This document shows positions 20,985 through 28,812 of a stretch of 64,000 nucleotides of DNA, in pieces. The DNA comes from Thiohalobacter sp. IOR34. GTDB taxonomy: Bacteria; Pseudomonadota; Gammaproteobacteria; Thiohalobacterales; Thiohalobacteraceae. Position numbers and translations under genes: made by a program. Within the stretch, counting starts at the first letter, position 1. Each line of letters begins with the position of its first letter. Where the stretch lies: NCBI RefSeq assembly GCF_030406045.1, contig NZ_CP128988.1:717438-781437 (forward strand), in the 5' to 3' direction. A model generated the notes under the pieces. It did not search any database, was not told the DNA's origin, and was given only the letters and a program-made list of their open reading frames with translations.

Positions 20985-21010
20985 GTAGGAGCGGCCACCA
21001 GGCCGCGATT
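20985..21010 (+). repeat. REP element at the broken end of intI
   Basis: The core GTAGGAGCGGCCACCAGGCC continues GCGATT. It ends where the truncated integrase frame stops, so it marks or caused the deletion of the rest of intI. Confidence 0.8.
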
Positions 21011-21326
21011 ACCCGTGCCCCAACACGCTGCAGCTTTCCCTGACCCACCCATCAGCCTTCCCCAAAGGCTTCCCCAACACCTCGGCATAGAGAAAGACCA
21101 GGGCATTGAAGGCCTGATGCTGACTCGTCACCGAAAGCCGCCGTTCAAGTGCAAGGTGGGAAAGAAAGCGGGCAACATCCCTATTGCACAGCGAGATCGG
21201 GTGTCGGTATTGATGAAAACGAATGTAGTGGCGTATCCAATAACAATACGCCTGTTCCGTCTTGCGGCTGTAATGAAGGGCGCGGATGGTATTCCGCACC
21301 TGATCGAGAAGGCGAATCCCCGTCAT
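21009..21326 (-). pseudogene. intI: Integron integrase, N-terminal fragment
   Basis: The surviving frame encodes 105 residues beginning MTGIRLLDQVRNTIRALHYS, then RKTEQAYCYWIRHYIRF and the core-binding-domain segment ending LYAEVLGKPLG. This is the standard SAM-like N-terminal domain of IntI tyrosine recombinases, normally ~320-340 residues. The catalytic domain with its Arg, His and Tyr residues is missing. The last ~10 residues are unrelated sequence running into a REP. The start has a good GGAGG site and a LexA box just upstream. The divergent orientation relative to the cassettes at right is the standard integron layout. It cannot recombine cassettes as it stands. Confidence 0.88.
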
Positions 21327-21735: not shown

Positions 21736-21838
21736 TAGTTCGGCATAAAAAAATCATGAGTCCAACCGTTTTCAAGGAGAAAGGTTACAGATTCTTCTTT
21801 GAACCGCCCCGGATATTCCGGAGACTATTTTGTTTGAG

Positions 21839-23058
<1,220 letters not shown>

Positions 23059-23266
23059 GACTCTATCCTCTCAAGAAATAGAGTCTCCGGTAAACCCGGG
23101 GCGGTTCACTTTTTCTCGAAAGAAGAAGAGAGAATGCATGTTCACATCATATCTGGGGAAGGGGAGGCAAAGTTCTGGCTAAGTCCAGAGATAGAATTGG
23201 CCAGGAATTATCAGTTCAGCAGAAAGCAGCTGAAGGAAATCGAATCATTGATAGAGGTTCATTACG

Positions 23267-23536
23267 ATGAGCTCGTTAGCACATGGCAAAAACACTTCAG
23301 CCGTTGAAGTAACAAATATTTCGTTCCATGGCTTGTGGATTCTTGCGCATGGTAAGGAATTGTTTATTCCATACGATCAATTCCCTTGGTTCAAAGATCA
23401 AAAATTATCATCTGTACTAAAAGTAGAAGAGGTGTCGCCTGGTCATTTCTATTGGCCCGATTTGGATGTCGACTTAACTGAAGAGATTATCGAACACCCA
23501 GAGCGTTTTCCATTGTCAGCCAAAAGCACCTCTTAG
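23267..23536 (+). CDS. DUF2442 domain protein
   Basis: The product has 89 residues with the DUF2442 pattern: WILAHGKELFIPYDQFPWF followed by the LSSVLKVEEVSPGHFYWPDLDVDL segment. It overlaps the 3' end of the DUF4160 frame by 41 bases, so the two were translationally coupled. In other genomes this pair behaves like an addiction-type module, with DUF2442 thought to be the DNA-binding or antitoxin-like member; that role is not certain. Its partner is now interrupted by the IS. It ends at an attC-like site, which marks it as an integron cassette gene. Confidence 0.8.
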   Translation: MSSLAHGKNTSAVEVTNISFHGLWILAHGKELFIPYDQFPWFKDQKLSSVLKVEEVSPGHFYWPDLDVDLTEEIIEHPERFPLSAKSTS

Positions 23537-23612
23537 TAACAATTGCGCCCAGTTCGCCCCTGCGGGGATCGGGCCTCGTTTACGCTCGGCCGCTGGCGCA
23601 CAACGTTATCGG
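23537..23612. other. attC-like site 1
   Basis: TAACAATTGCGCCCAG (from 23537) pairs with CGCTGGCGCACAACGTTA (ending 23608) apart from a few bulged bases. The central part CGCCCCTGCGGGG...CTCGGCCG forms the loop region. The recombination point would be G^TT at 23605/23606. The geometry and position directly after a cassette stop codon support attC. Confidence 0.78.
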
Positions 23613-23665
23613 TCAAAAGGAAGTTCGGAGTAATATTATGCCACCTGACGATTAAGGTGAGTGAC

Positions 23666-23899
23666 ATGGTAAAAACAGTCGAAGAGTTAGAACGTGAAAT
23701 CCGCTCCTTGAGCGATGATGATCGAAATCATTTGTTGAGGGATCTTGTAGCGGATCTAGATGGTGAACGTGACCCGGAAGTTGAGAAAGCCTGGCTAGAG
23801 GAAGCACAGAGAAGATTTCGTGAGCTAAAGGATGGCGTTGTTGAAGGTATATCATCCCGGGACGTTTTTAAAAATTCGAGGAATCGCCTGAATAAATGA
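23666..23899 (+). CDS. Antitoxin of the addiction-module family
   Basis: The product has 77 residues beginning MVKTVEELEREIRSLSDDDR, with an acidic helical body and EVEKAWLEEAQRRFRELKDG, the pattern of Unstab_antitox (PF09720) antitoxins. GGTGAGTGAC precedes the ATG. It overlaps the toxin start by four bases (ATGA). It should neutralise the ParE/RelE-like toxin and probably represses its own promoter. AT content is well above that of the flanking chromosome. Confidence 0.85.
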   Translation: MVKTVEELEREIRSLSDDDRNHLLRDLVADLDGERDPEVEKAWLEEAQRRFRELKDGVVEGISSRDVFKNSRNRLNK

Positions 23900-24171
23900 A
23901 TATCGAATTCCACCCAGAAGCAAGCGTGGAATTTCTGGCTGCAGCGGACTTTTACGAAAATGAAGTTCCCGGACTTGGTGAAGGATTTATATCCGAGGTG
24001 AAGCGAATAACCGCGCTTATAGGATCGCATCCTGCCATTTGCACGCCAATTGATGAAGTTTTCCGTAGGGATGTATTAGTACGATTTCCGTTCTCTGTCA
24101 TATATGATTCTGAAAATAACAGGTTATGGATTATTGCAGTAGCTAACCAGAGGCGTCGGCCCGGCTATTAG
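23896..24171 (+). CDS. RelE/ParE-family toxin
   Basis: The product has 91 residues: MNIEFHPEASVEFLAAADFY, then the ParE-type strand RDVLVRFPFSVIYD and the terminal AVANQRRRPGY. Family members inhibit gyrase or cleave mRNA on the ribosome; which applies here cannot be told. The gene stops 14 bases before attC 2. Such pairs are common in chromosomal integrons, where they help to keep cassette arrays. Confidence 0.88.
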   Translation: MNIEFHPEASVEFLAAADFYENEVPGLGEGFISEVKRITALIGSHPAICTPIDEVFRRDVLVRFPFSVIYDSENNRLWIIAVANQRRRPGY

Positions 24172-24185
24172 CGTGACAGAGATGA

Positions 24186-24246
24186 CCGATAACCAGCGCT
24201 TCCAGCCGACGCAAAAAACGCGCGGCTGAAGTACACCGTTATGTGC
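24186..24246. other. attC-like site 2
   Basis: CCGATAAC at the left and GTTATGTGC at the right bracket the stem CTTCCAGCCG/CGGCTGAAG, which leaves one extrahelical base, with a loop ACGCAAAAAACGCG. The recombination point is G^TT at 24238/24239. This is the best-formed attC in the window. Confidence 0.82.
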
Positions 24247-24266
24247 AATAAAGCAAAATAAATAAG

Positions 24267-26240
24267 ATGAGTCGAGCATATTACTCCGCCACATTAGAGA
24301 AATTTCAGAATGATCGAGATGACTTGATCCTTGGCGAGTTAACTCGGAATCATCAATTTGCACTTGAAGATTTACAGAGAAATGCATGGATATATCAAGT
24401 CCATATACTTAAAAACACACTAACGGAATTGCCAGGCTGTTACCTTGCATTTGAGTATGCAATTCCAAGAATGGGGAAGCGTGTAGATATTGTTCTTCTT
24501 TATCAAGGCGTGATTTTTGTCCTTGAATTTAAAGTCGGGGAAAAGAGTTATACCAATTCTGCCATAGAACAAAGCTTGGACTATGCGGTAGACTTAAAAA
24601 ATTTCCATGAGGAGAGTCACAGTCGAGCCATTGTTCCCATAGTTGTTGCAACTGAAGCATTTGATTGTGAACTGGAAATTCAATCGTACCCCGATCGTGT
24701 CTTCTCACCTGTAAGATCAAACCAGAGTAATTTTGTCTCACATATAAAGTTAATCTCAGCTGAAATCAATGAAGATAAACATTTAGATCCCGTTCAATGG
24801 ATTGAGTCGATATACAAGCCAACACCCACCATCATTGAAGCGGCCCAGGCTTTATATAAAGGTCACAATGTCAAAGAGATATCCAGGTCAGATTCAGGAG
24901 CTATCAATCTTGGAGTCACTTCAGACACGATAAATGAAATTATAAATTCATCTAAGGAAAATAATAGAAAATCAATTTGTTTCATTACAGGGGTGCCCGG
25001 TGCCGGAAAGACGCTAGCGGGTCTCAATATTGCGAACGAACGCCACAACGTTGACGAAGGTGAGCATGCGGTATTTCTCTCCGGCAATGGCCCCCTTGTT
25101 GAAGTGCTTCAAGAAGCTCTGGCCAGAAATGAAGTGGCTGAAAAAAAAGGCACAGCTCAGCAAATAAGCAAAAACCAGGCTTTAACGAAAACGAAAGCAT
25201 TTATTCAGAATATTCACCATTTCAGAGATGATGCACTTCAAAATGACAAGCCCCCTATAGAGCGTGTAGCGGTGTTCGATGAGGCGCAACGTGCATGGAC
25301 ATTAGAGCAAACAAGATCTTTTATGGCTCGAAAAAAAGGTATCCAAGGTTTTGATATGTCAGAACCAGAATTCCTTATTAGCGTGCTAGATCGGCATAGT
25401 GATTGGGCAACTATTATTTGCTTAATTGGAGGTGGTCAGGAAATAAATACTGGTGAAGCCGGTTTGTCTGAATGGTTTTCGGCAATTCAAAGAGATTACC
25501 CGCATTGGGATGTTTATGTTTCAAAGAAACTCACAGATCAAGAGTACACAAATGGGGAAAACATATACTCCTCGTTGAATGATAATCAACTAACAGTAAG
25601 AGATGAACTTCATCTATCGGTATCAGTCAGGTCCTATCGCTCAGAGAAGTTGGCTGCTTTCGTTAAAGCTTTCCTAGATGGTAATACTCTGGAGGCCCGT
25701 ACAATATACGCGCAACTAAAGGACGATTATCCTATTGTGGTAACGCGAAATATTGATGATGCGAAAAAATGGTTGAGGTCGCAGGCTCGTGGTGGTGAGG
25801 GCCTGGGTATTATCGCTTCGTCAGGTGCATATAGGTTAAGACCATATGGTATACATGTGAAATCCGCTATTGACCCAAAAACATGGTTCTTAAATGATAG
25901 GAGTGATATTCGTTCGGCCGGATTTCTTGAAGACGTTGCAACTGAATTCGATATCCAAGGACTCGAACTTGATTGGGCCTGTGTGGCATGGGATGCCAAT
26001 TTAAGAAAACTTGATGACTACTGGGAATTTAAGAGCTTTCGCGGCACCGAATGGCAGAACATTAATGACGAAATTAGGAGGCGGTACCTATTAAATGCTT
26101 ATCGAGTTTTATTGACAAGGGCAAGACAAGGCATGGTTATATTTATACCAGAAGGTGATGAATCAGATAGAACTAGAAAACCTGATTTCTATAACCCAGT
26201 CTTTCAGTATTTTATGGAGTGTGGTGTGGCATGTATATAA
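24267..26240 (+). CDS. Nuclease-helicase fusion: PD-(D/E)XK domain plus DUF2075 (Schlafen group 3-like) helicase
   Basis: The product has 657 residues. The N-terminal ~200 residues contain a nuclease signature: Asp in GKRVDIVLL, the ExK motif in LEFKVG, and QSLDYA, as in RecB/Cas4-type PD-(D/E)XK folds. An SF1-type NTPase follows, with Walker A GVPGAGKT near residue 243, Walker B VFDEAQRAW near 335, and motif VI LLTRARQGMVIFIPEGD near 620. This matches Pfam DUF2075. The fusion suggests a DNA- or RNA-degrading ATP-dependent enzyme, and a role in phage defence is plausible but inferred. It is AT-rich and sits directly after attC 2, so it is probably a ~2-kb integron cassette. Confidence 0.82.
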   Translation: MSRAYYSATLEKFQNDRDDLILGELTRNHQFALEDLQRNAWIYQVHILKNTLTELPGCYLAFEYAIPRMGKRVDIVLLYQGVIFVLEFKVGEKSYTNSAIEQSLDYAVDLKNFHEESHSRAIVPIVVATEAFDCELEIQSYPDRVFSPVRSNQSNFVSHIKLISAEINEDKHLDPVQWIESIYKPTPTIIEAAQALYKGHNVKEISRSDSGAINLGVTSDTINEIINSSKENNRKSICFITGVPGAGKTLAGLNIANERHNVDEGEHAVFLSGNGPLVEVLQEALARNEVAEKKGTAQQISKNQALTKTKAFIQNIHHFRDDALQNDKPPIERVAVFDEAQRAWTLEQTRSFMARKKGIQGFDMSEPEFLISVLDRHSDWATIICLIGGGQEINTGEAGLSEWFSAIQRDYPHWDVYVSKKLTDQEYTNGENIYSSLNDNQLTVRDELHLSVSVRSYRSEKLAAFVKAFLDGNTLEARTIYAQLKDDYPIVVTRNIDDAKKWLRSQARGGEGLGIIASSGAYRLRPYGIHVKSAIDPKTWFLNDRSDIRSAGFLEDVATEFDIQGLELDWACVAWDANLRKLDDYWEFKSFRGTEWQNINDEIRRRYLLNAYRVLLTRARQGMVIFIPEGDESDRTRKPDFYNPVFQYFMECGVACI

Positions 26241-26242
26241 AA

Positions 26243-26297
26243 GTACATACAAGGCACTCCACTGGACAGCAATTTCGCTGCGCTACATTGCCGCCGG
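26243..26297. other. attC-like site 3, truncated
   Basis: ACATACAAGGCACTCCACTGG followed by the CAGCAAT/ATTGCCG stem resembles the left arm and loop of an attC. ACATA-C is close to the CACATAAC expected from the TTATGTG at the start of this cassette. No right arm with GTT is found; chromosomal GC-rich sequence begins after ~26390. Confidence 0.45.
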
Positions 26298-26542
26298 GCT
26301 AGATCTCACTATGGTTCATCGCGGGTGGATAGGAAATTGGAATTACGAGAGAGCGCCTGCAGAAGCAAAGATGAGATTTTTTAGCGGATTGGCGAGGCGT
26401 CGCGGGCTGGCGGCCGTTACCTTAACGGCGGTGACGTCTGCCGTTCTTGCCCAGGCATGAGGGTCAGCAGGGAAGGGTGGGGTGCCCGGCCCGTCTGCCC
26501 TGCATTGGGCCGGGGCGGGCCGGATTGTGGTCAGCCGGCGGC
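26298..26542. other. Junction between integron island and chromosome
   Basis: Sequence changes from AT-rich to GC-rich around 26390. A frame at 26155-26460 overlaps the nuclease-helicase gene and shows no recognisable family. I see no promoter, terminator or gene. Confidence 0.4.
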
Positions 26543-26794
26543 CTAGCCCGCATATTGCACGAAGGATTCGAGTTTCAGGGCGAATCTGGCCAAGCAATTT
26601 GTTCGATCGCCCCCGAAACATAGCCGTAGCTAGGGTTCAAGGGGGATCGGGCAAAATGCGACGCCAGATTTGGTCTGAACTCGAATAGGCACAAACTGTA
26701 ACAGGGCACAATTGCTCGCAGAGGGAATTACTGCCTTGATAAATACCGGAAAAATTACGCATTCAAGGCCGCCTTCGTGCAATATGCGGGCTAG
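26543..26794. mobile_element. MITE-like element, copy B
   Basis: A 244-bp core (26547-26790) has perfect 19-bp terminal repeats CCCGCATATTGCACGAAGG. CTAG lies at 26543-26546 and 26791-26794, a likely 4-bp target duplication. It has the same length as copy A and is similar to it over the interior in opposite orientation; for example GTTCAAGGGGGATCG here matches GTTCGAGGGGGATCG in copy A. The two arms differ from copy A by the same compensated change (G/C) at two positions, so pairing is preserved. Confidence 0.88.
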
Positions 26795-28812
26795 GCCTCG
26801 TCCTCGATCTTGAACTCGTGGAACTTGTCCATCAGATCATCGGCGATCCTGACCAGCTGGTCGCCGATCTGCCTGATCTCCTGGCTTTCGCCCAGGGTCT
26901 TGTCCGCGAGGTCGGCGATGGCGACCACGTTGCGGTTCATTTCCTCGGCGACCGCACCCTGTTCGCTGGCTGCGGTTGCGATCTGGGTGGTCATGCTGTC
27001 GATGGAGTCGACGGCGTGGTCGATCTCGCTCAGCGAGTCCCGGGCACTGCCCGCTTCGGCAACGGCAGCCTCGGCGCGGCTGCGGCCGACATCCATGGCT
27101 GTGACCGCCTGTTCGACGCCGCTGCAGAGTTCTTCGATCACGCTGTTGATCTCCTGGGTCGCATCCTGGGTGCGGTTGGCCAGGGAGCGGACCTCGTCGG
27201 CCACCACGGCGAAGCCGCGTCCGTGCTCGCCAGCCCGGGCCGCCTCGATGGCGGCGTTGAGGGCCAGCAGGTTGGTCTGCTCGGCGATGCCGCTGATGGT
27301 TTCGATGATGGTGCCGATGTTGCGGCTCTTCTCTGAGAGTTCCTGGATGACGCCGGACGAATGCCGTACGTCGTCAGCCAGTTTGTGGACGGTATCGGCT
27401 ACCTGGGCGACGATGGCCTGGCCCTTCTTGGTTTCCTGATGGGCGCTGTGGGTGGCCCGGGCGCCTTCCTCGGCATTCCTCGCCACGTCCTGCACGGTGG
27501 CGGCCATCTCGTTCATCGCCGTCGCCACCTGGTCGGTTTCTATGTGTTGGCGCTGCATGCTGTCGGCGAGCAAGCTGACGCTGTCGTTGATGTTGCCCGA
27601 TTTCGTGGTCAGGGCCACGGCCGTGTCCGACAGGTTGTGGATCATGGTGCGCAGGTTCGAGCGCATGTAGTTCAGGGCCTCGCACAGATGGCCGATCTCG
27701 TCCTGGCTGTGAGTCTCGATGTGACCGCTGAGGTCGCCATTGGCGACGCGCTTGGCAAAGCCGGTCGCCTGCAGCAGTGGCAGGGAGATGCTGCGGCCCA
27801 CGAACCAGAGAGCGGCCAGGATGATGCCGACCGAGGCCAGGGCGATGGAGACGAGCAGTTGCAGGTCATGCCAGGCCTGCTGCTGCTTGCCTGTCATGGC
27901 CGCCTGCAGGTCGCCGGCCAGTCGGTCCTCGACCTTTTTCAGAAGATTGATCTTGTGGGTGATGGTGTCGAACCAGTACTTGGAGTCGATGCCGAAGCCG
28001 GTCATGGCCTGCGGAGTGGTGGCAGACAGTCTCTGGTCGATGTATTTGCTCGCTACGGCAACCATGCGCGTGACCTCGGCAACACGGGGATCGGAGAGGG
28101 TCTGCGCATAGAATTCGCGCTGCGCGGGGGAGGCCAGAGAGGTGAATTTTGCAAGATAGATGGATTGCGCCTCGAGAAGGCGTATGAAGTAGCTGCCCGT
28201 ATTCCCAGCAAAATGATTCTGGCCAAAGGCGGCGCTGAGCACGGCGCGGATGACGCCTTCCCGCTCCTTGGCCTGCATGAAATTCTCGTAGGCGGAATAG
28301 TGGTGGTTGATCTCCTGTTCATCCACGGCATAGGCGGCGAAACGTACTACATCGAGCAACAGGCGGTTGATGTGGGTATAGAATTCCAGTTCCTCCTCGA
28401 GGTCGAGCGTATGCTGGTCGACCCGGGTGCGGAAAGCGTCGATGCTTTGCAGTGCCGCCAGGGCCTGCTGCAGGCTGTTGGCGAAGTCCTCCCCGTAGCC
28501 TGCACTGGAAAAGCCACCAAGGAATTGCAGTAGCTGGTGGCGTTTCTCATCCGTCAACTGGCGCTGCTTGCGCATGGTTTCCAGGAATGCCTGGGAACCC
28601 TTGGCGAGATAGCCGGCCGAGGCGCCGCGTTCCTTCTGGGTTTCGTGGAGCAGGCTGCCAATCCGGATGCCCAGATCGGTGACGGGGGCGAAGGCTTCCA
28701 TCTCTTGGGCCAGACGGTAGCGGTCGAACACCTGCATGGCAGCAAATGTCAGGGCCAGGATGAGGGGGGCAAGACCCAGTATCAGGATCTTGGCTTTAAT
28801 GCTGTGAAACAT
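26791..28812 (-). CDS. Methyl-accepting chemotaxis protein with nitrate/nitrite-sensing (NIT) domain
   Basis: The product has 673 residues, starting at 28812 with GGAGGAAACC upstream. A membrane helix at ~10-30 is followed by a ~280-residue periplasmic helical region with [25 protein letters not shown], the NIT-domain opening. A second membrane helix at ~315-335, a HAMP domain and the cytoplasmic signalling hairpin with [16 protein letters not shown] complete it. NIT domains sense nitrate or nitrite in related proteins. The stop codon TAG coincides with the CTAG flank of MITE copy B. A FliA-type promoter and an FNR/DNR-like box lie upstream. It should signal through CheW/CheA to the flagellar motor. 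Confidence 0.9.

Follow-up and report, generated by a model that had tools for sequence, protein, structure and literature searches.

Analysis of a 64,000-nucleotide stretch of the Thiohalobacter sp. IOR34 genome (the window) identified a 2-kb mobile cassette, foreign to this genome, with a gene for a protein of 657 amino acids (ATG start, no internal stop) in which a PD-(D/E)XK nuclease domain is fused to a helicase domain (Table 1). This nuclease-helicase protein is probably a stand-alone single-gene defence protein of the candidate family PDC-S41, carried as an integron cassette, and its most likely activity is that of a stand-alone ATP-driven nuclease against invading DNA. The defence reading is based on a full-length match to PDC-S41, a patchy spread with absence from other genomes of the same family, the lack of a recurrent partner gene, a low dN/dS and defence genes among the neighbours of homologues. 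The GC content of the gene is 41% (34% at third positions) as compared to 64% for the window, in agreement with the AT-richness on which the original prediction had remarked.

PDC stands for phage defence candidate. The PDC-S41 model of PADLOC-DB v2 (PDLC05014) aligns to residues 1-655 of the protein over positions 1-651 of its 657, with 965.9 bits and an E value of 2.3e-291. Because PADLOC-DB already contains this model, which covers the protein over its full length, the gene adds one member to a candidate family that exists already, and its reading as a new defence family is ruled out. The proposal of a candidate anti-phage gene thus fits the evidence, but the candidate is not a new one. The PDC families were obtained by guilt-by-embedding; many have no link to known defence islands and most are unvalidated (PMC12988326). 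A literature search, which had most subscription papers and preprints outside its scope, found no paper naming PDC-S41 and no experimental validation. It also found no paper joining DUF2075, the former name of the helicase domain, with integrons and phage; the papers on DUF2075 and phage were strain-genome or probiotic studies by their titles.

Table 1. Features of the integron remnant and of the nuclease-helicase gene (window coordinates; the arrow marks a cassette border).
Feature	Position	Strand	Basis
Integron integrase, N-terminal fragment, first ~91 amino acids only	21009..21326	-	TIGR02249, 95 bits, profile 1-91 of 315
IS3-family insertion between integrase fragment and array	21800..23108	-	Terminal repeats 21800-21838 / 23070-23108
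First remaining cassette: DUF4160 + DUF2442, toxin-antitoxin-like pair	22981..23536	+	Pfam; 5' part adjoins IS3 end
Probable attC after DUF4160/DUF2442 cassette	23534..23605	+	TAACAATTGCGCC...GGCGCACAACG↓TTATCG with L''/L' pairing
Preceding cassette: addiction-module antitoxin (PF09720) + ParE-type toxin (PF05016)	23606..24238	+	Pfam; borders from sequence
attC of preceding cassette, to G of R' box	24186..24238	+	Fold with own cassette start
Nuclease-helicase cassette, minimal extent 2058 bp	24239..26296	+	5' border G↓TTATGTG, conserved 3' end ...CATTGCCGCCG; length identical in L002
PD-(D/E)XK nuclease-SLFN-g3 helicase protein, PDC-S41 family	24267..26240	+	ORF, PF09848, PADLOC, AlphaFold model
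Predicted PD-(D/E)XK nuclease domain, ~residues 1-190; catalytic D74, E87, K89, plus Q102, Y106	24267..24842	+	Invariance, model, PDB matches
SF1 / Schlafen-group-3 helicase domain, residues 235-628	24969..26150	+	PF09848, motifs, structural matches
Degenerate attC of nuclease-helicase cassette	26245..26296	+	R'' ACATACA, expected ACATAAC; weak fold

The helicase domain belongs to Pfam family PF09848 (SLFN-g3_helicase), with a score of 264 bits against a gathering cut-off of 24 (E 3e-78) and with intact motor motifs: Walker A GVPGAGKT (K248, T249), DEAQ at residues 338-341, and motif VI (R618, R620). In an alignment of 68 homologues with 54-89% identity to the query, K248, T249, D338, E339, Q341, R618 and R620 are invariant, as are D74, E87, K89, Q102 and Y106 of the nuclease domain. 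Both the nuclease motifs (D...ExK...QxxxYA) and the intact Walker A, DEAQ and motif VI that had been read from the single sequence are therefore not due to chance. An AlphaFold2 model of the whole protein, built from the same alignment, has a mean pLDDT of 84.8. Its best structural match is human SLFN11 (Z 18.4, rmsd 9.1, 383 residues aligned), closely followed by UvrD, HelD, SLFN14, Dda, Pif1 and RecD2, and these matches identify the motor as an SF1 helicase. Upf1 ranks high in the Foldseek list, and AddAB and RecBCD are also among the structural matches. A sequence search against solved structures gave nothing meaningful; its weak matches, for example the potassium channel SK2 (E 0.001), aligned the Walker-A stretch alone and were treated as chance. 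A search of PHROGs with the protein gave no family at E < 0.01. Some homologues from Bacteroidota (L048, L058, L063, L066, L072) possess an extra conserved C-terminal part of ~150-250 amino acids ending in FICSEWYE...NDRPYFLKWL.

When folded alone, the N-terminal domain is modelled with an AlphaFold pLDDT of 93.9, and the PDB structures that match it are, among the matches listed, mostly PD-(D/E)XK nucleases. The best of these is Can2 (Z 8.5, rmsd 3.9 over 137 residues); others are Cdn1, McrC, EndoMS, Card1, NucC, Hjc and DdmD. A single-sequence Pfam search of the domain gave nothing above threshold. When the N-terminal domains of 65 homologues were scanned, nuclease families of the PD-(D/E)XK type came first among the weak Pfam matches (NERD in 22, HSDR_N in 11), with CoiA_nuc, PDDEXK_9 and PDDEXK_4 as further matches. 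Since the Z values are modest, the assignment is made on the fold, the invariant D...ExK residues and the weak NERD/HSDR_N matches jointly; with this predicted fold and these residues the domain falls within the PD-(D/E)XK superfamily. The combination of a nuclease with a DUF2075 helicase, as originally proposed, was thus recovered for both parts of the protein, and a nuclease fold, the lack of which would have spoken against that proposal, is predicted with high confidence.

From these two domains a mechanism can be proposed in which the SF1 motor would load on the nucleic acid of an invader, most likely on phage or plasmid DNA at an end, a gap or a replication intermediate, and would then translocate at the expense of ATP. 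The fused PD-(D/E)XK domain would cut the strand during passage, and replication of the invader would fail as a result. We infer that the substrate is DNA, that the target is an invader and that no partner is needed; for the motor, DNA is the probable rather than an established substrate because the nearest solved motor structures include the RNA-acting SLFN11 and Upf1. The main rival, which we regard as unlikely, is an abortive-infection RNase, whose motor would sense or move on RNA while the PD-(D/E)XK domain cuts RNA, or RNA and DNA, so that the infected cell is stopped. It is the main rival because the helicase family includes the antiviral Schlafens and because CRISPR ancillary nucleases are among the nearest folds to the nuclease domain. 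Schlafen and Upf1 helicases sense or move on RNA, and the prominence of SLFN11 and Upf1 among the matches of the whole model agrees with such an activity, as do Can2, Cdn1 and Card1 as the best matches of the nuclease domain, some of which also cut RNA. However, DNA helicases such as UvrD, Dda and Pif1 reach similar scores (Z 14-18), the DNA-cutting McrC and EndoMS are within 1-2 Z of Can2, and the Schlafen RNase core domain is absent from the Pfam matches.

The similarity to Schlafens also allows an evolutionary reading, in which the nuclease and SLFN-g3-helicase unit would be the bacterial and archaeal counterpart of the linker-plus-helicase half of the vertebrate group III Schlafens, the linker being a dead PD-(D/E)XK domain. 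When the whole model is aligned with dimers of SLFN11 and SLFN14, the alignment does not stop at the helicase but continues into the linker (model 7-642 to SLFN11 399-899) and comprises 380-390 residues instead of ~270. In addition, the sequence DYAVDL at residues 105-110 resembles the Schlafen SWAVDL motif. In SLFN11 this motif is located at 444-449 (PMC9482658), but pairing of the two fits poorly with the aligned range, and the Schlafen alignments have an rmsd of 9-10. Because a structural search with the isolated nuclease domain retrieved no Schlafen among the matches listed, we consider this relationship very improbable. If true, the link between a widespread prokaryotic defence candidate and a human antiviral factor would extend over two domains and not just one.

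The integron cassette context that had been proposed for the gene is real but decayed. From left to right the array consists of an integrase fragment, an IS3 insertion, a DUF4160/DUF2442 pair, an antitoxin/ParE-type pair and, as the last cassette, the nuclease-helicase gene. The genome encodes one complete integron integrase (C1:57511-58449) and two fragments, that of the window (C1:738476-738748) and another at C1:1622698-1622973. Both fragments end after ~91 amino acids and their regions are 92% identical over ~620 bp, so the integron remnant seems to have been duplicated. The nuclease-helicase cassette is inserted right after the G of the R' box of the preceding attC, and its 5' border, TTATGT, is of the G↓TTRRRY type with a difference from TTRRRY at one base. 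Folded in the form it would have in the excised cassette, the preceding attC shows strong structure on its bottom strand (z -6.3, a value reached by none of 500 shuffles); the probable attC after the DUF4160/DUF2442 pair, as it stands, is not significant against shuffles. The cassette's own attC is degenerate both in the window and in L002, a copy of the cassette in a Sedimenticola MAG, and folding against shuffles gave z -0.4 and 0.1, respectively.

Some further elements were observed in this region. The only hit of an Rfam search of the integron region was an ALIL pseudoknot (RF01497, 99 bits) at 22664-22780 on the minus strand, which lies between the two transposase frames of the IS3 element. 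The DUF4160/DUF2442 pair is likely a toxin-antitoxin cassette and shows weak similarity to the DhiT toxin (20 bits, cut-off 100). Just right of the array lies a MITE-like element of 258 bp (26540-26797), bounded by perfect 26-bp inverted repeats (GGCCTAGCCCGCATATTGCACGAAGG); the stretch 26543-26700 recurs with 83% identity beside the second integrase fragment (L117 11632-11790).

The broken integron and the decayed attC also give rise to the reading that the copy in the window is a stranded passenger that is out of use, even if the family is defensive. It is favoured by the truncated integrase, the degenerate attC and the decay of other homologues: the homologue at L007 10001-11970 stops after 137 codons and a copy in genome G040 is split, which suggests occasional loss of the gene through decay. 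We nevertheless consider it fairly unlikely for the copy studied here, as the reading frame is intact and all catalytic residues are present. Comparison of the window with L002 gave dN 0.054 and dS 0.587, and the resulting dN/dS of 0.09 points to purifying selection on the gene, although this value reflects mostly the time before capture.

Comparison with related loci indicates that the cassette moves as a unit. The cassette in L002 shares both ends and the length of 2058 bp with that of the window, to which it is 87% identical at the DNA level and 89% at the protein level; it is flanked by an alpha/beta hydrolase gene and xthA and has no further cassette next to it. A relative, G079, has both flanks of L002 without the gene and reads ...CAGTCTG↓ATAGACTTCTG where L002 has ...GGTCTG, the cassette, ATGAGTTTTATCG and ATAGACTTCTG. 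G079 is not a base-for-base empty site, since ~245 additional bases lie more to the left within this gap. In L002 a remainder of 13 bases leaves some play in the position of the right-hand crossover: the end of the cassette may be ...GCCGCCG or a point a little beyond it, and the true 3' junction may lie up to ~30 bp further right. The left border CTG↓TTATGTG is common to L003 (81%) and L007 (82%), where it is preceded by unrelated DNA, so that L002, L003 and L007 all have the 5' border of the window with different DNA upstream.

A more distant homologue, in a Helicobacteraceae MAG of the Campylobacterota (L045, 57% identical), starts with G↓CTATGTG and is followed by an attC with R'' ACATAAC, which folded with its own cassette start gave z -2.7 (7 of 500 shuffles as low). 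With the cassette of the window and L002 on one side and that of L045 on the other, the gene has been carried by cassettes in at least two distant branches. A crude test for cassette-like ends by R''/R' complementarity, which has no power, found 2 among 80 loci with 3.6 expected, and cassette status is therefore claimed for a few homologues and not for most. The cassette after the homologue in L045 (12062-12850) encodes a protein starting with MIDMSWHDAIIKVLKESDSAMRYTDIAEKV, possibly a winged-helix restriction-type gene, and the array may thus harbor a second defence-like cassette.

A scan of ~85,000 species genomes gave 333 relatives of the nuclease-helicase protein, of which 80 loci were compared and 78 were placed in a tree. 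The tree members span 14 named phyla, including the archaeal Nitrososphaerota, Promethearchaeota and Woesearchaeota, and the tree needs at least 20 changes of phylum label against a minimum of 13, a count that contaminated bins may inflate. The gene has travelled as a self-contained unit through very different microbes. It was found in none of 10 other genomes of the same family and, among 55 other relatives, only once and in split form (G040:C40:105589-107564, split near residue 430). Conserved housekeeping homologues, which would have argued against the original prediction, are not what this patchy pattern shows. The distribution also bears on a possible role as an accessory enzyme of DNA repair or recombination, that is, a horizontally spread one-chain helicase-nuclease resembling AddAB or RecB. 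Such an enzyme would have the same two activities, AddAB and RecBCD are among the structural matches, and many copies occur outside defence islands. We consider a repair role improbable in view of the distribution, which is very patchy, with close relatives that do not have the gene; the full-length match to a defence-candidate model and the transfer as an integron cassette also argue against it.

Homologues are rare on plasmids (4 of 72,556 records), and the viral collections contain one record each. The latter are an unverified, unannotated faecal 'Bacteriophage sp.' record and an IMG/VR contig, and a reading as a phage gene was rejected on this basis. The rarity on plasmids and in viral collections would agree with a system directed against plasmids or integrative elements instead of phages, with the same nuclease-motor chemistry and a different target, and the anti-plasmid helicase-nuclease DdmD is among the matches of the nuclease domain. 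However, plasmid rarity has several explanations and the present evidence does not tell plasmid and phage targets apart; we assign a low probability to an exclusively anti-plasmid role.

No gene family is present beside more than 4 of the 80 homologues among immediate neighbours, in agreement with the earlier proposal that the gene has no partner. An obligate partner was rejected, since there is no common family and the short upstream gaps seen at some loci (L011, L016, L018, L048) involve unrelated genes. In a PADLOC scan, 243 neighbours from ~50 loci were compared with a control of 119 proteins encoded in random regions of 14 of these genomes. The neighbours, in two scans, matched 56 and 47 PADLOC models as compared to 32 for the control, where several models can match one protein, so that these are not per-gene counts, and the sample is small. 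Among the neighbour matches listed are Type I HsdR, AbiEi/AbiEii, AbiJ, HamB, pAgo, UzuA, SoFic (three proteins), a Type II methyltransferase and several PDC families. The control matches consist largely of regulators and of a single PDC-S02 match in many versions, and none of those listed is HsdR, AbiE, AbiJ, HamB, pAgo or one of the neighbour PDC families. In this modest sample more recognised defence genes are thus found beside homologues than in random regions, which supports a role in defence.

At L048 a Type I HsdR gene (439 bits) ends 5 bp upstream of the homologue, L005 has a PDC-S15 gene as neighbour and L049 an HNH restriction-type gene. Matches to GajB and DrmD-type proteins at L022, L034 and L072 are partial helicase matches. 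Clustering of homologues in defence islands, an expectation attached to the original prediction, is therefore true for some loci, but many copies are lone insertions between housekeeping genes (for example L002, L011, L018 and L055), and in the window the cassette adjoins toxin-antitoxin cassettes only.

If the role in defence is true, a compact, partnerless gene that occurs in bacteria as well as archaea and is mobilised by integrons would constitute a simple restriction system, with one protein and two point mutants, and a large two-domain enzyme would be added to the defence genes that integrons shuttle. The landing of the cassette alone between chromosomal genes bears on the spread of defence genes outside recognised islands. 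The gene is a clean and easily testable candidate.

Several known systems resemble the nuclease-helicase protein. The Nhi and AbiO-type proteins combine a nuclease and an SF1-type helicase in a single chain and, like the protein described here, are single-gene defence systems. The matches are local and restricted to motor motifs (Nhi 18.9 bits over 41 residues, AbiO 18.1 bits), and by sequence the protein belongs to neither family; a full-length match to an Nhi profile was not obtained. Gabija GajB, DdmD, Hna, Druantia DruE and other defence helicases likewise couple a helicase to nuclease activity against invading DNA. GajB, DdmD, Hna and DruE belong to different helicase subfamilies, and GajB matches in the motor motifs alone (11.5 bits).

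The vertebrate group III Schlafens SLFN11 and SLFN14 provide the best PDB structural match, and PF09848 takes its name from the helicase domain of group 3 Schlafens. Unlike these proteins, the query possesses an intact PD-(D/E)XK nuclease instead of the Schlafen RNase core: no Pfam match to the AlbA_2/SLFN core RNase domain was found at E values up to 1, and strictly speaking the protein is therefore no Schlafen. The bacterial Schlafen proteins recently reported to act in defence, as far as these are cited in PMC12839542, are Schlafen-family RNases, a different part from the helicase considered here.

Similar to integron-borne defence cassettes, the gene forms a single-gene cassette in an array adjoining toxin-antitoxin cassettes, whereas its integrase is a fragment, its own attC is degenerate and L002 has the same cassette outside any array. 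The correspondence to PDC-S41 comprises the whole protein. Both are single genes of equal length and equal domain order; the PDC-S41 model is a computational candidate, whereas the query sits in an integron cassette, and nothing in the comparison excludes membership of the family.
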